A stretch of 64,000 nt of DNA from a virus: positions 57,873 through 121,872 of IMG/VR virus record IMGVR_UViG_3300046318_000188; one strand, written 5' to 3'. Positions 14,010 to 64,000 of this stretch are shown here, piece after piece (positions within the stretch are counted from its first letter, which is position 1; each line of letters begins with the position of its first letter). Both the position numbers and the translations under genes were made by a program. Under the pieces are notes generated by a model. That model saw nothing but the letters and a program-made list of their open reading frames with translations. It was not told the origin of the DNA and made no database searches.

Positions 14010-14724
14010 TTGTACTGCAAACTTAGGTGACTTTTGTAATGCCTTACCAGTAATCTCAGGTATTTCAAAATCTGTTGGACATAAAATTCATCTAATCATT
14101 AGACCAGAAATGCGTAAATTTAATGGCATCAAAGAGTTTTTACAACATCAGAAGATGATTAAAGATGTGGACTTCTCAGATGACCTGCTTGTGTTTGGTG
14201 ATATAATGACTTTGAGTTCTTGGACTCGTATGCAACAAGAAGATGCGGATAGACCGGTTGAAACTTGTCGTTATGAAAATTGGGTTCGTGATAATTATCA
14301 ATTAGACTTTAGAGTTGATGATGACTTTGAAGTTCAAGTCGAACCGACACCCGTAGAAGATGTAACAGATAAAACAATTATTGGTGACAGATGGTCAGCT
14401 CAACAAGACCCAGCAGTTGATACAAGAAGAAATACTAATGTGGTTGAACATGGTGTAAATCCTGACCCAACAAAAGTATTCTATCTTGATTATACAAAAC
14501 CAATCATGTATAATCTTAATCTTATTAAAAACAATCCTAATCCTTTTGTTACTACATTCACAGGCATTGGTATCATTGCTGACTTAATGAACAAAGAAAC
14601 TATTGTTTGTTGGGATGAAGATATGAGAACATGGGATGGTCATCCAGTAGGATTTGATTTTAAAAGACATTATTATGCAGACAGATATTCTAAATTAGTT
14701 TATGTTAAAGATTTAGTTCTATGA
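13993..14724 (+). CDS. GT9-like (heptosyltransferase-type) glycosyltransferase
   Basis: With this start the N-terminus is MKIKIDCTANLGDFCNALPV, which fits a GT-B glycosyltransferase of the GT9 type (NLGD loop, then ALPVISGI). The start has AGGAG at 13983-13987, five bases upstream. A longer in-frame version from 13939 would begin inside the previous coding region without a better ribosome site. The C-terminal part (FTGIGIIADLMNKETIVCWDED) resembles the GT9 donor-side segment. It lies inside the 3' end of the HtrL-like gene. Confidence 0.7.
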   Translation: MKIKIDCTANLGDFCNALPVISGISKSVGHKIHLIIRPEMRKFNGIKEFLQHQKMIKDVDFSDDLLVFGDIMTLSSWTRMQQEDADRPVETCRYENWVRDNYQLDFRVDDDFEVQVEPTPVEDVTDKTIIGDRWSAQQDPAVDTRRNTNVVEHGVNPDPTKVFYLDYTKPIMYNLNLIKNNPNPFVTTFTGIGIIADLMNKETIVCWDEDMRTWDGHPVGFDFKRHYYADRYSKLVYVKDLVL

Positions 14725-16721: not shown

Positions 16722-17683
16722 AATCGTTTCGTGCTTATATTGTTGAAGGTCGTGGTACATTAACTGCATCTGGTGAAACCGGTGAGGACCATAAAAAGCG
16801 ATATATTGATCCACATGTTGGATCAGATAAACCGACTCACGTTTTGGCCAAAGAACATGATGACCTTCCAAAAGGTTCTGCTATTAAGATTCATAAAACT
16901 GAACATATTAATGGTAAAATCCATGTTCATGCTGAAGATGAAACAGGTAATCATCATGTTATTCCTATTTCCAAATTACATAAACCCGGTGATGAACCTA
17001 AGAATAAAGGACATGAATATGAGTCCAAGTTCGTTGATAGGTTGAAGAAACATGGAATTATGCCTCACCACCTTTCTGGTGCCGGTTCAACAGGTGGTAC
17101 AGACTTTTCTGTTGAGAATAAGAAAAAAGGTAAGTTTCATGCTGGTACTGTTTCTGGCCATCTACTTAACGGTGAAACAAAGAATGGTACAACGGCTGCA
17201 ATGGGCCAGTTAACTATTCATCACAATAAAGAAAAAGGTTGGCACATCAAAGATTCACAAAGAGCGAAACGTCCAGAATATGCTAAACATATTGAGAAGT
17301 CTGGAATTCTTAAACATATGAATAAACATCATCCTGATCCAGAAAAAGAACCAGCTACAGAATCGGGTCGTGCTAAAACCATCGAAATTAAACATCCAAA
17401 TTTACATCCAGCTGAAGGTTATTTGAAAGACCATCATGTTCATGTTTTACAGGTTGGTGGCCATGGTACATACAAGGTTGGAGAAAAAGATGAAACTGGT
17501 CACGGATTGCCTTCAATTTCTGGCAAAGGAAAGTGGAGAATCCGTGAAAAACAAAAAGGTAATAAAAACGCAAGAACAGTAGCTTTTCATCCGGATGGTG
17601 TCAAAGGTTTAAATAAAAGTCACGTTGATTTGGATAAAGATGAACATTTAGATGCATTTAAGAAAACATTGGGCCACAAATAA
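16718..17683 (+). CDS. Candidate PD-(D/E)XK-like protein with capsid-targeting-like N-terminus
   Basis: This 321-residue, His/Lys-rich protein overlaps the ligase-like gene by 4 bp. It begins MKSFRAYIVEG, where IVE before G is a good match to the T4 gp21 prohead-protease rule (I/L-x-E before A/G). The central part has GHEYESKFVDRL, then STGGTDFSVENKKKGK and LNGETKNGTTAAMGQL. An acidic D followed by ExK (ETK) and a Gln is the layout of PD-(D/E)XK nucleases. The nuclease call is tentative. A second region rich in KxGE/KxDETG follows. A packaged nuclease beside a packaged ligase would be notable. Confidence 0.55.
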   Translation: MKSFRAYIVEGRGTLTASGETGEDHKKRYIDPHVGSDKPTHVLAKEHDDLPKGSAIKIHKTEHINGKIHVHAEDETGNHHVIPISKLHKPGDEPKNKGHEYESKFVDRLKKHGIMPHHLSGAGSTGGTDFSVENKKKGKFHAGTVSGHLLNGETKNGTTAAMGQLTIHHNKEKGWHIKDSQRAKRPEYAKHIEKSGILKHMNKHHPDPEKEPATESGRAKTIEIKHPNLHPAEGYLKDHHVHVLQVGGHGTYKVGEKDETGHGLPSISGKGKWRIREKQKGNKNARTVAFHPDGVKGLNKSHVDLDKDEHLDAFKKTLGHK

Positions 17684-54561: not shown

Positions 54562-54773
54562 AATATATTGCAAAACCAAGATTGTTTAATTACACTCACT
54601 CAAAAGAATTTGATGATGTAGTTGATGCTATTAAGTATTTGAATGAGTACATGAGTGCTAAAGAAGGTGACCATTCAGATTATGTGTTTATTGCACCATC
54701 ATTATCAAAGAAACAATTAAAGAAATCGATTGAAGAATATGTTGGTATTGGTAAATTGGAAATCATGGCATGA
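54558..54773 (+). CDS. Small protein (71 aa)
   Basis: ATGA overlap. MKYIAKPRLFNYTHSKEFDD then YVFIAPSLSKKQLKKSIEEY; mixed strand and helix. Function unknown. Its stop overlaps the oxygenase start. Confidence 0.58.
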   Translation: MKYIAKPRLFNYTHSKEFDDVVDAIKYLNEYMSAKEGDHSDYVFIAPSLSKKQLKKSIEEYVGIGKLEIMA

Positions 54774-55312
54774 GTTTGAAGTTACTTTGGCCTACTCCCG
54801 TATGGGAGATTGAAACGCCTGAGTTGGCAGATATCGTTGCGCCTTTGTTACATGAGATTAAAACTACACCACCTGATCCAGAAAGTTTGTTCAAGATAGA
54901 TTTGCCTGAAGCGAGTAAATTTGTTAAGATGTTAAAACCTATTGTGAATGATGCCATGAAAGAAGGTGGATATCCGTGGGAATACAATAAATTATTATGG
55001 GGTCGTGCAGTTCGTATGACACAAGGTAATTGGGATTCACCACACATACACCTTGCACCAATGTTAGTTGGAGTATTTTACTTGCAAGTACAAAGAGGTC
55101 ATGGTGATTTGTTTTTGGTACCTAGTTCAGGTAATTCTGGATTTACTACACATCATGATGGTATGAAAGGTACAAGATTGTATCACCAAATTGAAGCTAA
55201 AGAAGGTAAATTGGTTCTAATGCCAGCAGACTTGGCACATTTTGTATTGCCCAATACACTACCATTACCACGATATTCAATAGCACTAAATTTTGAAATG
55301 AATGCACTATAA
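54770..55312 (+). CDS. 2-oxoglutarate/Fe(II) oxygenase-like protein
   Basis: This 180-residue protein has the layout of the double-stranded beta-helix 2OG oxygenases found in T4-like phages: MSLKLLWPTPVWEIETPELA at the N-terminus, DSPHIHLAPMLVGVFYLQVQ (first metal His), GDLFLVPSS, and a C-terminal LPADLAH-like stretch (VLMPADLAHFVLPN) with YSIALNFEM, where the Arg in LPLPRYSIAL can bind 2OG. An HxD/E...H triad cannot be fixed by eye. The substrate is unknown. Confidence 0.75.
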   Translation: MSLKLLWPTPVWEIETPELADIVAPLLHEIKTTPPDPESLFKIDLPEASKFVKMLKPIVNDAMKEGGYPWEYNKLLWGRAVRMTQGNWDSPHIHLAPMLVGVFYLQVQRGHGDLFLVPSSGNSGFTTHHDGMKGTRLYHQIEAKEGKLVLMPADLAHFVLPNTLPLPRYSIALNFEMNAL

Positions 55313-58834: not shown

Positions 58835-58843
58835 GGAGTTGTG

Positions 58844-59377
58844 ATGAAAAAAATAATGCCACAAATGGCCAGACCAGGTAAAAATGGTCACGGAGAACCA
58901 AGACCAAAAGTTGTATGTGTTGAGTGTAAAGAATTATTATCACAAAAGTTTTTTTCGTATAAAGTCAAAAAAAATCCATCACAAGGCATTAGAGATAGAT
59001 GTAAATCTTGTTCGGCTAACAAAGCAAAAAAAGAAACTGAAAGAAGAAATAATAATTGGAAATATCATCCAACACGACACATGTTGAATAATTCAAAACA
59101 AAGAGCAAAAGTGGCTGGACTAGAACATACATTAAAAATAGATGATATTATCATACCTGATTTTTGTCCTGTATTAGGAATAAAGTTAGAAACTGGTAAT
59201 AGAAAGAATCATTTTAATGCACCCAGTATTGATAGAATTAATAATACTAAAGGTTACATTAAAGAAAATATTGTAGTTGTTTCAACTCGAGCCAATCTTT
59301 TAAAAAAAGATGCTACCATAGATGAGCTTATTATGATTGCTAAATTTTATAGTGAATTGAAAGAAAAAACAAATTGA
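58844..59377 (+). CDS. HNH-family homing endonuclease-like protein
   Basis: This 177-residue basic protein has a zinc-ribbon start (VCVECKELL, then RCKSCSANKAKKE) and the C-terminal part CPVLGIKLETG, SIDRINNTKGYIKENIVVVS and RANLLKKDATIDEL. The CPxLG ... SxDRIxxxxGYxxxN pattern is that of HNH-type phage endonucleases. I start at ATG 58844, five bases after AGGAG, rather than GTG 58841. It overlaps the next gene by 4 bp. A hairpin precedes it. Confidence 0.8.
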   Translation: MKKIMPQMARPGKNGHGEPRPKVVCVECKELLSQKFFSYKVKKNPSQGIRDRCKSCSANKAKKETERRNNNWKYHPTRHMLNNSKQRAKVAGLEHTLKIDDIIIPDFCPVLGIKLETGNRKNHFNAPSIDRINNTKGYIKENIVVVSTRANLLKKDATIDELIMIAKFYSELKEKTN

Positions 59378-60657: not shown

Positions 60658-60665
60658 GATAAATA
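60658..60665 (+). promoter_or_regulatory. T4-type late promoter GATAAATA
   Basis: GATAAATA, starting in the base after a stop codon and 31 bp before the Cys-repeat gene. It should drive the Cys-repeat protein, the radical SAM gene and those behind it. Confidence 0.7.
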
Positions 60666-60696
60666 TGCCATTATTAACATTAGATACTAGAAAATC

Positions 60697-61179
60697 ATGA
60701 CTTTACCATCAACTGGCGCCATAGCGACATCCGACATCAATATTGAAGTTGGTAATGCCTCAAATTATTCTTTAGCTCTATCTTGGATTAGAGATAATAC
60801 CAAACCTTCAGTAACCGATTTCAATAGTTTGCGTAGCAAAGCGTATTATCAAAAGAATAATGATGGTAACTGTGCCAATGGGAATTGTACATCCAATTGT
60901 AATTGTGGTAATATTCAATGTAATAATTGTGTTATTTCTGGTACTGTAAACTGCCTGAATTGTGATGCTCAAAAATGGTTACAAACCGACTGTAATTGTG
61001 GAACTCCATATAACTGTACTACAGGTGCAACATCTTATAACTGTAATTGTGACTGTCCTGTGGATTGTGCTTGTGCTTGTAACTGTCCAGTTGACTGCGC
61101 ATGTAATTGTCCTGTAGATTGTGCTTGTGACTGTCCTGTGGATTGTGCTTGTGATTGTAACTGTGATTGCGGTGGTTAA
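60697..61179 (+). CDS. Cys-rich repeat protein, candidate radical SAM substrate
   Basis: This 160-residue protein has two parts. Residues 1-55 have no Cys and read MTLPSTGAIATSDINIEVGN..., an LPSTGAI...DINIE start like phage tail-fibre or structural proteins. Residues about 58-160 contain all 29 Cys, mostly as alternating NC/DC/AC units, with four copies of CPVDCAC separated by NC or DC and a final CGG. The nucleotide repeats vary, so the protein repeat is kept by selection. No metal-binding family fits. The radical SAM gene starts 28 bp after it, which suggests it is modified; metal binding or a disulfide-rich adhesin are alternatives. Confidence 0.78.
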   Translation: MTLPSTGAIATSDINIEVGNASNYSLALSWIRDNTKPSVTDFNSLRSKAYYQKNNDGNCANGNCTSNCNCGNIQCNNCVISGTVNCLNCDAQKWLQTDCNCGTPYNCTTGATSYNCNCDCPVDCACACNCPVDCACNCPVDCACDCPVDCACDCNCDCGG

Positions 61180-61207
61180 TAATTTAAACTAATGGAAATA
61201 TAATAAT

Positions 61208-62674
61208 ATGATTTTTGAAATTCATGCAGAACGAAGTGCAACCGATAAAAAGATTTTCTTTTATGATAATGAAAAGAATGTATTAAAAGATTCTGACGGC
61301 AATACTTATCAATCAACAAACTCAAAAAAGTTTTCAAATAAGTTACCTGTAATTCCTTTCGATAAAGAAAATCCAATAAAGAAATCCAATAAAATCAAAC
61401 TGTTGAAGATTCAGATGGGATTGTCTTGTAATTATTCTTGTGACTACTGTTCACAAAAGTTTGTTGAACGAGCAGCCGAAACCAATCCAAAAGATGTACC
61501 CAACTTTATGGCCATGATGGAGAATTTAGACCTCTCTGAAGAAATGGGTTTGAAGATTGAATTTTGGGGTGGCGAACCATTTGTATATTGGAAAACCATG
61601 AAACCTCTGGCAGAAGCATTGCGTGCTAAGTTTGCTCATTGGAAAACACCACCAAAATTCTCTGTCATTACCAATGGATCGTTATTGACAGAGGACATCT
61701 GTGCATGGTTGTACGCCATGGGGTTTTCTGTTGCTATCTCACATGATGGACCTGGTCAATCGGTTCGTGGTCCTGATCCATTTGAAGATCCAAAGAAGAA
61801 AGAGGTTGCATTAGATTTATATAATGTATTGAAGCCGTTAAACCGTATGAGTTTTAATTCTATGCTGAATGCTAAAAACATTAGTAGAAAAGAAATCTAT
61901 GATTGGTTTGTTGACTTTACTGGTGATAACCGTGTAATTGTCGGTGAAGGTGGATTCGTTGATGCATATGATGAAGATGGTTTAGACAATTCATTAAGTA
62001 CCAAGAAATCTCATTTTAATTTCAGGCAGTTGGCTTTTAATGATATGAATGATATGATTAAAGAAGGCAACGGTTTCTTTGGTTTCGGTTCAATCAAACA
62101 GAAGAAAGATTCTTTTGTTCGTAATGTGTTGAATCACAACGAATCAAAGTTCTTGGGTCAAAAATGTGGCATGGATGACGAACACACATTGGCAGTTGAT
62201 TTGCGTGGTAATGTTACCACTTGTCAAAATGTCAGTTCATTAGAATTATCCAAGAATGGTGAAAGCCATTTGGGTGGTACAATGGACAAATTAGAAGAAG
62301 TACAATTAACATCTTCTACTCATTGGATGAATAGACCAGATTGTGCTGGATGTCCTGTATTACATATTTGCCAAGGCGCTTGTATGTTCCTCGATGGTAA
62401 ATATTGGGATGCATCTTGCAAAAATGCTTATTCGGACGCAATTGCTATATTTGCTATAGCATTTAAAGAGATAACCGATGGATATGTACCGTTTCTAATT
62501 AACAATGAAACTTTACCATTGGATAGACAAGACATTTGGGGTGTTCTATATGAGCATAAAGAAGAACCAAAAAGAAAAATTATACCAATCAAAGTTGTTA
62601 GTGATAAAATGACAATTGTTAATGATATTGAGGTATACGAACAAAGTAAAGTAATTGAAGGAGAAACTCAATGA
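61208..62674 (+). CDS. Radical SAM/SPASM peptide-maturase-like protein
   Basis: This 488-residue protein has an N-terminal 65-residue extension, then the radical SAM cluster motif MGLSCNYSCDYC (C74, C78, C81, CX3CX2C), EFWGGEPFVYW (the GGE motif for SAM), SVITNGSLL, and a C-terminal Cys-rich domain: QKCGMDDEHTLAVDLRGNVT followed by CQN, then CAGCPVLHICQGACMF and a last Cys. This matches the SPASM auxiliary-cluster domain of enzymes that modify peptides or proteins (sulfatase maturases, RiPP maturases). The extension may be a divergent leader-recognition domain. It lies directly after the Cys-repeat gene in the same late unit. Confidence 0.9.
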   Translation: MIFEIHAERSATDKKIFFYDNEKNVLKDSDGNTYQSTNSKKFSNKLPVIPFDKENPIKKSNKIKLLKIQMGLSCNYSCDYCSQKFVERAAETNPKDVPNFMAMMENLDLSEEMGLKIEFWGGEPFVYWKTMKPLAEALRAKFAHWKTPPKFSVITNGSLLTEDICAWLYAMGFSVAISHDGPGQSVRGPDPFEDPKKKEVALDLYNVLKPLNRMSFNSMLNAKNISRKEIYDWFVDFTGDNRVIVGEGGFVDAYDEDGLDNSLSTKKSHFNFRQLAFNDMNDMIKEGNGFFGFGSIKQKKDSFVRNVLNHNESKFLGQKCGMDDEHTLAVDLRGNVTTCQNVSSLELSKNGESHLGGTMDKLEEVQLTSSTHWMNRPDCAGCPVLHICQGACMFLDGKYWDASCKNAYSDAIAIFAIAFKEITDGYVPFLINNETLPLDRQDIWGVLYEHKEEPKRKIIPIKVVSDKMTIVNDIEVYEQSKVIEGETQ

Positions 62675-63060
62675 TAGACCATCCAGACTTTTTTAACGAA
62701 AACCTACACCTATTGGCTAAAAAACTAAAAGCACTCGATAGTGTTGTTCTTGTTAAATTTCATGCGGTAGTAACACAAAAAGCAATTGAAATGTATGGAG
62801 CAGACACATTTAAGTTTTCTGTCGTTGTTGAAAAGCATGCACTTGATGACCGTTATGATTCACACAGGGAATTTTTTCAATTTGTACCAAAAGATTTGTG
62901 GAATAATCCAGATGTTGAAGTTCGTGAAAAAAATACTGAGTTACCATCTACGGGCCATACAACCGTTGTTAATAGATTTACAAATACAATAAAACTTTAT
63001 CTTGAAAATCCAACAACAGATTTAGATAGTTTGACAAATTGGTCATACCAACAACAATAA
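62671..63060 (+). CDS. Unknown protein after the maturase (129 aa)
   Basis: ATGA overlap with the radical SAM gene, so probably co-translated. It has KKLKALDSVVLVKFHAVVTQ then MYGADTFKFSVVVEKHAL and FFQFVPKDLWNNPDVEV; a mixed alpha-beta fold. No Cys. A partner or chaperone for the maturase is possible from position only. Confidence 0.7.
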   Translation: MIDHPDFFNENLHLLAKKLKALDSVVLVKFHAVVTQKAIEMYGADTFKFSVVVEKHALDDRYDSHREFFQFVPKDLWNNPDVEVREKNTELPSTGHTTVVNRFTNTIKLYLENPTTDLDSLTNWSYQQQ

Positions 63061-63087: not shown

Positions 63088-63819
63088 ATGCTGACAAAAT
63101 TTGAAATAGATGCACAATATTATAAATTATCAAAACATCTAATCAATAAAAATGAAAGTCCAGTAAATACTGGAAATCAATCATTAAGTTATTTAATGGA
63201 TTCAAATGGCCGTTTAATTGCCATTGGAACACATAGAATGAGTTGTCAATCAATGGCAATCTTTAATAAGACTTACATTCCAACACTATTTAATTCAATC
63301 AATAATTCCAACCTTAATATTAATATACAGCGTGACGCTTGCTGGAAATTAAAGAAGTTTGGAAACCCACAACAATCAATATGGCAAGAAGATTTAAATA
63401 TAGAATCAATTGAAGATTTATATGAAATTGTGTTGGTAAATCAAAAGGTCGCTCTTCTGGATAAAATTTACGATAATATTAATGCTACAAGAAATAAGAC
63501 TTATGGTGGATTGGTGGGTCAAAATTTCATATATTTCTCTAAGTATCTAGAAGCAAAAGAAATTATGGAAAAGAATATTGAATCTGATCCTGATTTTAAA
63601 TATCCTTATACCACAGGTTATGCTACTCTGATGAATCTGTCTTTACAAGAATCAGCAAAAGCTATAATTTTACAATTTGATTCCGTATCGGGTGCTATGT
63701 CTGAGAGTGAAAATATTCGTTTGAAATATAAAAATTTAGTTATCAATGAAAAAGATATCGCCAATTTAAAACACATTTATAAAGATTTTTTAGATTTACA
63801 AAATTACGGATGTTTGTGA
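63088..63819 (+). CDS. Unknown protein in the maturase unit (243 aa)
   Basis: AACGAGA precedes the ATG. It has MLTKFEIDAQYYKLSKHLIN, LIAIGTHRMSCQSMAIFNK, then IQRDACWKLKKFGNP and YDNINATRNKTYGGLVGQ. It is polar and mixed alpha-beta; three Cys are not clustered. No family is recognised. It seems to belong to the same late unit as the maturase. Confidence 0.7.
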   Translation: MLTKFEIDAQYYKLSKHLINKNESPVNTGNQSLSYLMDSNGRLIAIGTHRMSCQSMAIFNKTYIPTLFNSINNSNLNINIQRDACWKLKKFGNPQQSIWQEDLNIESIEDLYEIVLVNQKVALLDKIYDNINATRNKTYGGLVGQNFIYFSKYLEAKEIMEKNIESDPDFKYPYTTGYATLMNLSLQESAKAIILQFDSVSGAMSESENIRLKYKNLVINEKDIANLKHIYKDFLDLQNYGCL

Positions 63820-63820
63820 C

Positions 63821-64000
63821 ATGAGTTTATTATTTTATAATAGTTATGATATTTTTCTCAATTCAAAGAATAAAGATAAAGTTAATCTAATACCAGGAGG
63901 AAAAGCATTTTCTTCCTATTTTGAAATATTTCATCTAAATTCAACTGTTGTAGACCGAACAAACACAATCACATTTCCTTTAAACACTAAGGTATTGGAC
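63821..64000 (+). CDS. Partial protein cut by the window end
   Basis: An ATG one base after the preceding stop opens 60 codons that run to the end of the window without a stop: MSLLFYNSYDIFLNSKNKDK, then LIPGGKAFSSYFEIFHLNST. It is probably the next gene of the late unit. Function unknown. Confidence 0.55.
   Translation, partial: MSLLFYNSYDIFLNSKNKDKVNLIPGGKAFSSYFEIFHLNSTVVDRTNTITFPLNTKVLD

Follow-up and report, generated by a model that had tools for sequence, protein, structure and literature searches.

A cysteine-rich tract and its radical SAM/SPASM enzyme as a putative tail-fibre modification system of tailed phages

Several described enzymes resemble the phage protein considered here. 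The SCIFF maturase CteB and the PapB-type ranthipeptide maturases share a SPASM radical S-adenosylmethionine (SAM) fold and are encoded directly beside their substrates, which are Cys-rich ribosomal peptides of 45-60 amino acids. The anaerobic sulfatase maturase (anSME) has the same SPASM architecture. The target of QhpD, which matures the gamma subunit of quinohemoprotein amine dehydrogenase, is not a peptide but a Cys-containing protein. We analysed a stretch of 64,000 nucleotides (hereafter the window), the right-hand 64 kb of the 121,872-base virus record IMGVR_UViG_3300046318_000188, in which the gene of a Cys-rich protein is followed by the gene of a radical SAM/SPASM enzyme. Genes for a tail sheath, portal, major head protein, terminase and T4-type DNA polymerase assign the record to a contractile-tailed, T4-like phage; it may be incomplete. 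We consider it likely that one gene encodes the substrate and the other the maturase in a system by which tailed phages modify their tail fibres, with a Cys tract that is probably matured by Cys thioether cross-links.

As in the CteB and PapB systems, a SPASM radical SAM fold is found next to a Cys-rich ribosomal partner. Unlike in those systems, no classical leader is seen, the proposed substrate is a fibre tail rather than a short peptide, and the curated cut-offs are far from reached. The enzyme matches several models for maturases of ribosomally synthesised and post-translationally modified peptides (RiPPs), namely the geopeptide-type, PapB, QhpD, nif11 and SCIFF models, yet each falls far under its own cut-off (66.4 bits against 340 for PapB, 44.2 against 425 for SCIFF, 63 against 453 for QhpD). 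QhpD also differs in substrate and context. anSME is among the nearest structures, and the homologue in Achromobacter phage JWF is annotated as an anSME. Sulfatase maturation was nevertheless rejected because the record encodes no sulfatase (PF00884) and the anSME model gives 39.9 bits against a cut-off of 349.

The enzyme and the Cys-rich protein

The proposed maturase (488 amino acids, 61208-62674, on the + strand like all features of the pair) is identified by profile, motifs and structure model. It matches phrog_1802 over its full length (2.5e-63, residues 23-423) and scores 32.2 bits for the SPASM model TIGR04085, above the cut-off of 27, while PF04055 lies above its cut-off in one scan and just below it in another. 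The radical SAM [4Fe-4S] motif CNYSCDYC (residues 74-81, 61427-61450) contributes C74, C78 and C81, GGEP stands at residue 121, and the SPASM region (residues 320-404, 62165-62419) holds Cys 320, 339, 379, 382, 388, 392 and 404, which fit the spacing Cx13Gx4C ... Cx2Cx5Cx3C ... C. None of the three core Cys or the seven SPASM Cys varies across 70 diverse relatives. The preliminary description of these motifs holds, with core and SPASM Cys all intact. The AlphaFold2 model is of high confidence (predicted local distance difference test (pLDDT) 93, predicted template modelling score 0.91). Its nearest solved folds are CteB, anSMEcpe, TigE, SuiB, ChlB and SkfB, all of them peptide- or protein-modifying radical SAM enzymes, and a profile search agrees. 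We regard membership of the radical SAM/SPASM peptide-modifying class as settled. Pfam and NCBIfam gave no recognisable RiPP recognition element; at its N-terminal end the model shows a small beta region. The phrog_1802-type enzyme had 568 viral relatives in one scan, and the family occurs at 73 loci in genomes, mainly of Alpha- and Betaproteobacteria.

The proposed substrate (160 amino acids, 60697-61179), supported by its open reading frame (ORF), a 19-member alignment and substitution rates, contains 29 Cys and ends 28 bp before the enzyme gene, as first reported. Cys makes up 1.3% of residues across the long ORFs of the window, which gives 29 in 160 a binomial P of ~6e-24, and no other long ORF in the window approaches this content. 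An N-terminal module (residues 1-56, 60697-60864), weakly folded in the model and with no family match, precedes the Cys tract (residues 59-160, 60871-61176). The tract is built of [N/D/A]-Cys units, includes four exact CPVDCAC units (residues 120, 130, 138 and 146) and ends in ...CDCGG. AlphaFold2 reaches a pLDDT of 44 overall and 64-72 over residues 1-50, with the tail predicted to be disordered. The four CPVDCAC copies differ at the DNA level by synonymous changes only, and the ratio of nonsynonymous to synonymous substitution rates against the nearest relatives is ~0.15 for the Cys protein and ~0.1 for the enzyme. Together with the Cys excess, these values indicate that both are real, selected genes. 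The alignment contains invariant Cys and NC pairs, and N, D or A precedes 28 of the 29 Cys. The CPVDCAC repeat that first drew attention is therefore present in four copies but is a local form of a wider [Asn/Asp/Ala]-Cys unit.

Upstream of the Cys gene lies TAAATA (60660-60665), a partial T4-type late-promoter motif; the full upstream motif is GATAAATA and not the complete T4 TATAAATA. Among 18 relatives, 10 have TAAATA no more than 90 nt before the Cys gene, including two with TATAAATA, compared to 3.4% of random 90-nt windows. This enrichment makes the late promoter proposed earlier plausible, although with a partial motif it stays unproven.

Linkage of tract and enzyme in viral genomes

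The linkage was approached from three directions. The enzyme-first set comprised 74 clusters (90% identity), each flanked by 4.5 kb or more of upstream and 1.5 kb or more of downstream DNA. An ORF was scored as NC-rich if it lay on the same strand as the enzyme and had at least 5 Cys and at least 3 NC dipeptides in 25 residues. Such an ORF was found at 66 of the 74 loci and at 45/45 loci of the close family, compared with 1/74 for the antisense control and 0/55 for windows elsewhere in the source genome. Among the eight misses, L137, L159, L165 and L182 have shorter NC tails and L160 likewise carries tracts. A tract-first search scanned viral contigs with nothing but a DNA pattern for NCNCNCNC, and 105 of 120 stretches code it in frame. 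The enzyme was present at 46 of the 47 loci with a C-terminal tract and at least 4.5 kb of 3' DNA, and a separate examination of the remaining locus, L315, shows it there as well. Finally, with the window protein as query, 78 of 80 loci contained the enzyme; in the two exceptions the contig ends 107 and 156 bp past the Cys gene. A tblastn search of isolated phages with the same protein gave no match.

Pairing of the Cys tract with the enzyme is real and widespread. The substrate-enzyme relationship proposed in the preliminary description is strongly supported by these three independent tests, whose loci were drawn from a single viral collection in scans that overlap and, with 90% clustering, are not fully independent by descent. 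The proposal would have suffered had the two genes been unlinked in relatives, and their linkage proved near-obligate. A ribosomal substrate beside its modifying enzyme, with the two kept as a pair, is a general feature of RiPP systems, and a conserved pair of this kind is found here. Taken together, the data argue strongly that the tract is the substrate of the adjacent SPASM enzyme.

Tracts at the ends of tail fibres

In most relatives the tract falls within the final 7-19 residues of a larger protein, and where that protein is a tail fibre it makes up the last 8-20. These tract-bearing proteins fall into 11 body families unrelated by BLAST, seven of which are singletons. Nine of them were scanned, and 7 gave matches to tail-fibre PHROGs, weak ones in two cases. 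Where the Cys protein stands alone, a Peptidase_S74-type fibre gene ends at most 4 bp from the start of the Cys gene at 9 of 15 loci, seven of which were checked with Pfam. Achromobacter phages JWF and 2-1 resemble the window in pairing an NCNCDCNCNC-type tract with a family enzyme two genes on. In both, the tract of a tail-fibre-like protein (AJD82922.1 in JWF) stands immediately ahead of a Hint domain, and one gene lies between that protein and the enzyme. JWF is temperate and can be induced (PMC3899368). The window protein differs in having no Hint domain, which may cleave the tract free in JWF and 2-1. A Cys protein of the window type likewise runs into a Hint domain at locus L376. Other T4-like relatives encode, downstream of the enzyme, a ~300-residue protein whose N-terminal part is the Cys domain. 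The C-terminal domain of these proteins recurs in SynMITS9220M01_028, which adjoins a fibre gene; poly-Pro/poly-Arg replaces the Cys tract there, and the record was not matched in the enzyme searches.

The Gly-rich protein beside the fibre gene of Synechococcus phage SynMITS9220M01 (L049:4669-6519), with its C-terminal domain of the L009 type, offers a natural control. In a Parasutterella genome (L186:4681-6077), Cys-rich proteins with HCSYCSYCTYC / NCTTVNCTTVNC repeats are encoded three in a row ahead of one Ig-like and two radical SAM genes; this prophage-like locus of a gut bacterium has a divergent form of the tract.

The fibre C-termini and the Peptidase_S74 neighbours argue strongly that the tract is a part of the virion; by analogy with the relatives, it would be so in the source phage too. 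The notion of a virion component or adhesin in the preliminary description is sustained by these relatives, and not by the N-terminus on which it had leaned. The likeness of that module to tail-fibre or structural proteins is unproven, with no PHROG or significant phage match. A free-standing small protein beside a maturase, as in the source phage, is also what RiPP clusters look like, and the Cys protein could give rise to a peptide, secreted or intracellular, with for example an antibacterial or host-takeover role. We regard this as very improbable since the tract of relatives ends full-length tail fibres, or the Cys gene lies directly behind a fibre gene, and the pair has no recognised transporter or peptidase next to it.

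Several observations weigh against the fibre-modification reading. The N-terminus of the Cys protein returned nothing significant and no family match in PHROG, Pfam and phage searches. A Peptidase_S74 fibre was sought in the source record and none was found. The recognised fibre genes of the source phage, a 1090-residue collagen-like tail fibre (L200:3232-6504) and a 1754-residue tail-spike-like protein (L200:6545-11809), lack the Cys tract and lie at the opposite end of the linear record from the pair. Distant enzyme relatives at L168 and L193 have no NC-rich ORF nearby. In Thermus phages Cumys and phiMa, a distant radical SAM/SPASM relative in the baseplate/fibre region is likewise immediately preceded by a repetitive protein, but the repeats are His-Xaa-Asp (HSDTHSDTHADTAHGD...; L326:6000-7031 and L323:6003-7031) rather than Cys, there is a DUF483 partner and identity is ~26%. 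The Cumys radical SAM module was noticed earlier and DNA modification was suggested (PMC11437467), which is the nearest published statement that we found. The His-Xaa-Asp protein is a possible His-based analogue of the tract. Given L168, L193 and the Thermus repeats, members of the enzyme family may use other substrates or chemistry. For radical SAM genes of Campylobacter phages the match covered only part of the core, and none of the three upstream genes examined carries a Cys tract.

Possible chemistry and neighbouring genes

Residues between Cys in the tracts (the X of CXC) are Asn in 59%, Ala in 27% and Asp in 10% of cases, together 96%. Such a strict bias is as expected from an enzyme substrate rule or from cross-linking geometry. 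Thioether bonds from Cys to Asn, Ala or Asp are favoured on two grounds, namely that thioether formers are among the nearest characterised enzymes and that each unit has a Cys; we infer this chemistry with about as much confidence as doubt. Under this model, transcription would start late in infection from the TAAATA-type promoter upstream. A fibre or fibre-linked protein would be made with an [Asn/Ala/Asp]-Cys tract, which in the source phage and its nearest relatives would reside on the separate small protein. The adjacent SPASM enzyme would then modify the tract, still late in infection, by introducing oxidative Cys thioether bonds to small neighbouring residues, as CteB- or PapB-type enzymes do. 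A floppy Cys tail might thereby become a rigid, redox- and protease-stable fibre tip that is assembled into the virion, and that could serve in host binding or in holding the fibre complex together. Any benefit of the modification is likewise something we infer.

The same pair could also work by another chemistry. The residue before each Cys might be epimerised to yield an alternating D/L chain, or altered otherwise, or the chain might be oxidised, and neighbouring genes of the 2-oxoglutarate (2OG)-Fe(II) or Asp/Asn-hydroxylase type might hydroxylate Asn/Asp. The near-constant Asn, Ala or Asp beside Cys is consistent with this, as is the recurrence near the pair of 2OG-Fe(II) oxygenase genes (62 loci) and Asp/Asn hydroxylase-like genes (29 loci). 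Epimerisation, however, needs no substrate with so many Cys, the window cluster has no adjacent hydroxylase, and several thioether formers (CteB, PapB, SuiB relatives) are among the nearest structures and profiles, which makes a different chemistry rather unlikely. Thioether cross-linking remains the preferred reading.

Alternatively, the tract could form a metal-binding or disulfide-linked fibre tip, with the enzyme acting on another protein encoded nearby, such as an Ig-like one. CXCXC spacing suits metal binding, and the tip of T4 gp37 has His-rich metal sites. An Ig-like protein is encoded between fibre and enzyme at 56 loci. The window and many T4-like relatives lack such a gene beside the enzyme and have the Cys protein as its sole constant partner, and we hold this alternative to be quite improbable.

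The neighbourhood holds further recurrent genes. The Ig-like neighbour (L152:4830-5720 and 55 other loci) is a conserved protein of 250-340 residues with a C-terminal Ig/invasin-like domain, located between an NC-tailed fibre gene and the enzyme, and has no Pfam family. An aspartyl/asparaginyl beta-hydroxylase-like gene lies beside an Asn/Asp-Cys-rich protein at L124:12320-13102 and about 28 other loci. The source record has a 2OG-Fe(II) oxygenase (PF13759) at window positions 55007-55291 (ORF 54770-55312), ~5 kb 5' of the Cys gene, and two further matches in the record (14170-14451 and 16951-17058). Near the pair also lies an HNH/endonuclease VII-like gene (window 58841-59377), possibly a homing endonuclease. 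A second, shorter radical SAM gene directly precedes the family enzyme at ~9 loci (L230:5437-6459, L322:4695-5711 and L186:6998-7978 among them). Tryptophan-halogenase-like genes occur near the pair at 13 loci, including L005:8409-9620 and L007:8468-9634; they possibly add a tailoring step and offer a lead to the natural substrates of phage halogenases. Halogenase relatives occur in cyanophages also. An action of cyanophage flavin halogenases (VirX1-like) on such tails was considered as a lead only, and no cyanophage with a Cys tract was found.

Downstream of the enzyme, on the + strand, follow two proteins without assigned function. The first (129 amino acids, 62671-63060) overlaps the enzyme end by 4 bp and has a weak relative in L023, and the second (243 amino acids, 63088-63819) is kept in the nearest relatives with 42% identity to its L002 homologue. 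The window cluster ends in the start of a PP-loop ATPase-like gene on the same strand (63821-64000), cut by the end of the record and 45-50% identical to PP-loop-like proteins of 372-376 residues at the same place in L002 and L023. PP-loop/Asn-synthase-like genes occur near the pair at 14 loci.

The enzyme belongs to a known class, whereas its substrate, place and purpose are apparently new. In the full-text literature searched (open-licence papers only), we found no description of phage fibres being modified by radical SAM enzymes. The evidence suggests that phages chemically modify their host-recognition fibres. We lean, by a modest margin over doubt, towards a widespread but unrecognised RiPP-like maturation class in tailed phages, in which the receptor-binding fibres of diverse phages and prophages terminate in an [Asn/Ala/Asp]-Cys tail. 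A dedicated SPASM enzyme, joined in some lineages by a halogenase, 2OG-oxygenase or second radical SAM enzyme, would convert this tail into a cross-linked tip of novel chemistry. If true, this would add a new layer to phage host recognition, assign a function to the large unnamed family phrog_1802 and provide a natural set of modified protein tips. It would also explain those radical SAM genes of phage tail regions that are currently annotated as sulfatase maturases or supposed to modify DNA. With phages such as JWF in culture, the idea of fibre modification is testable.
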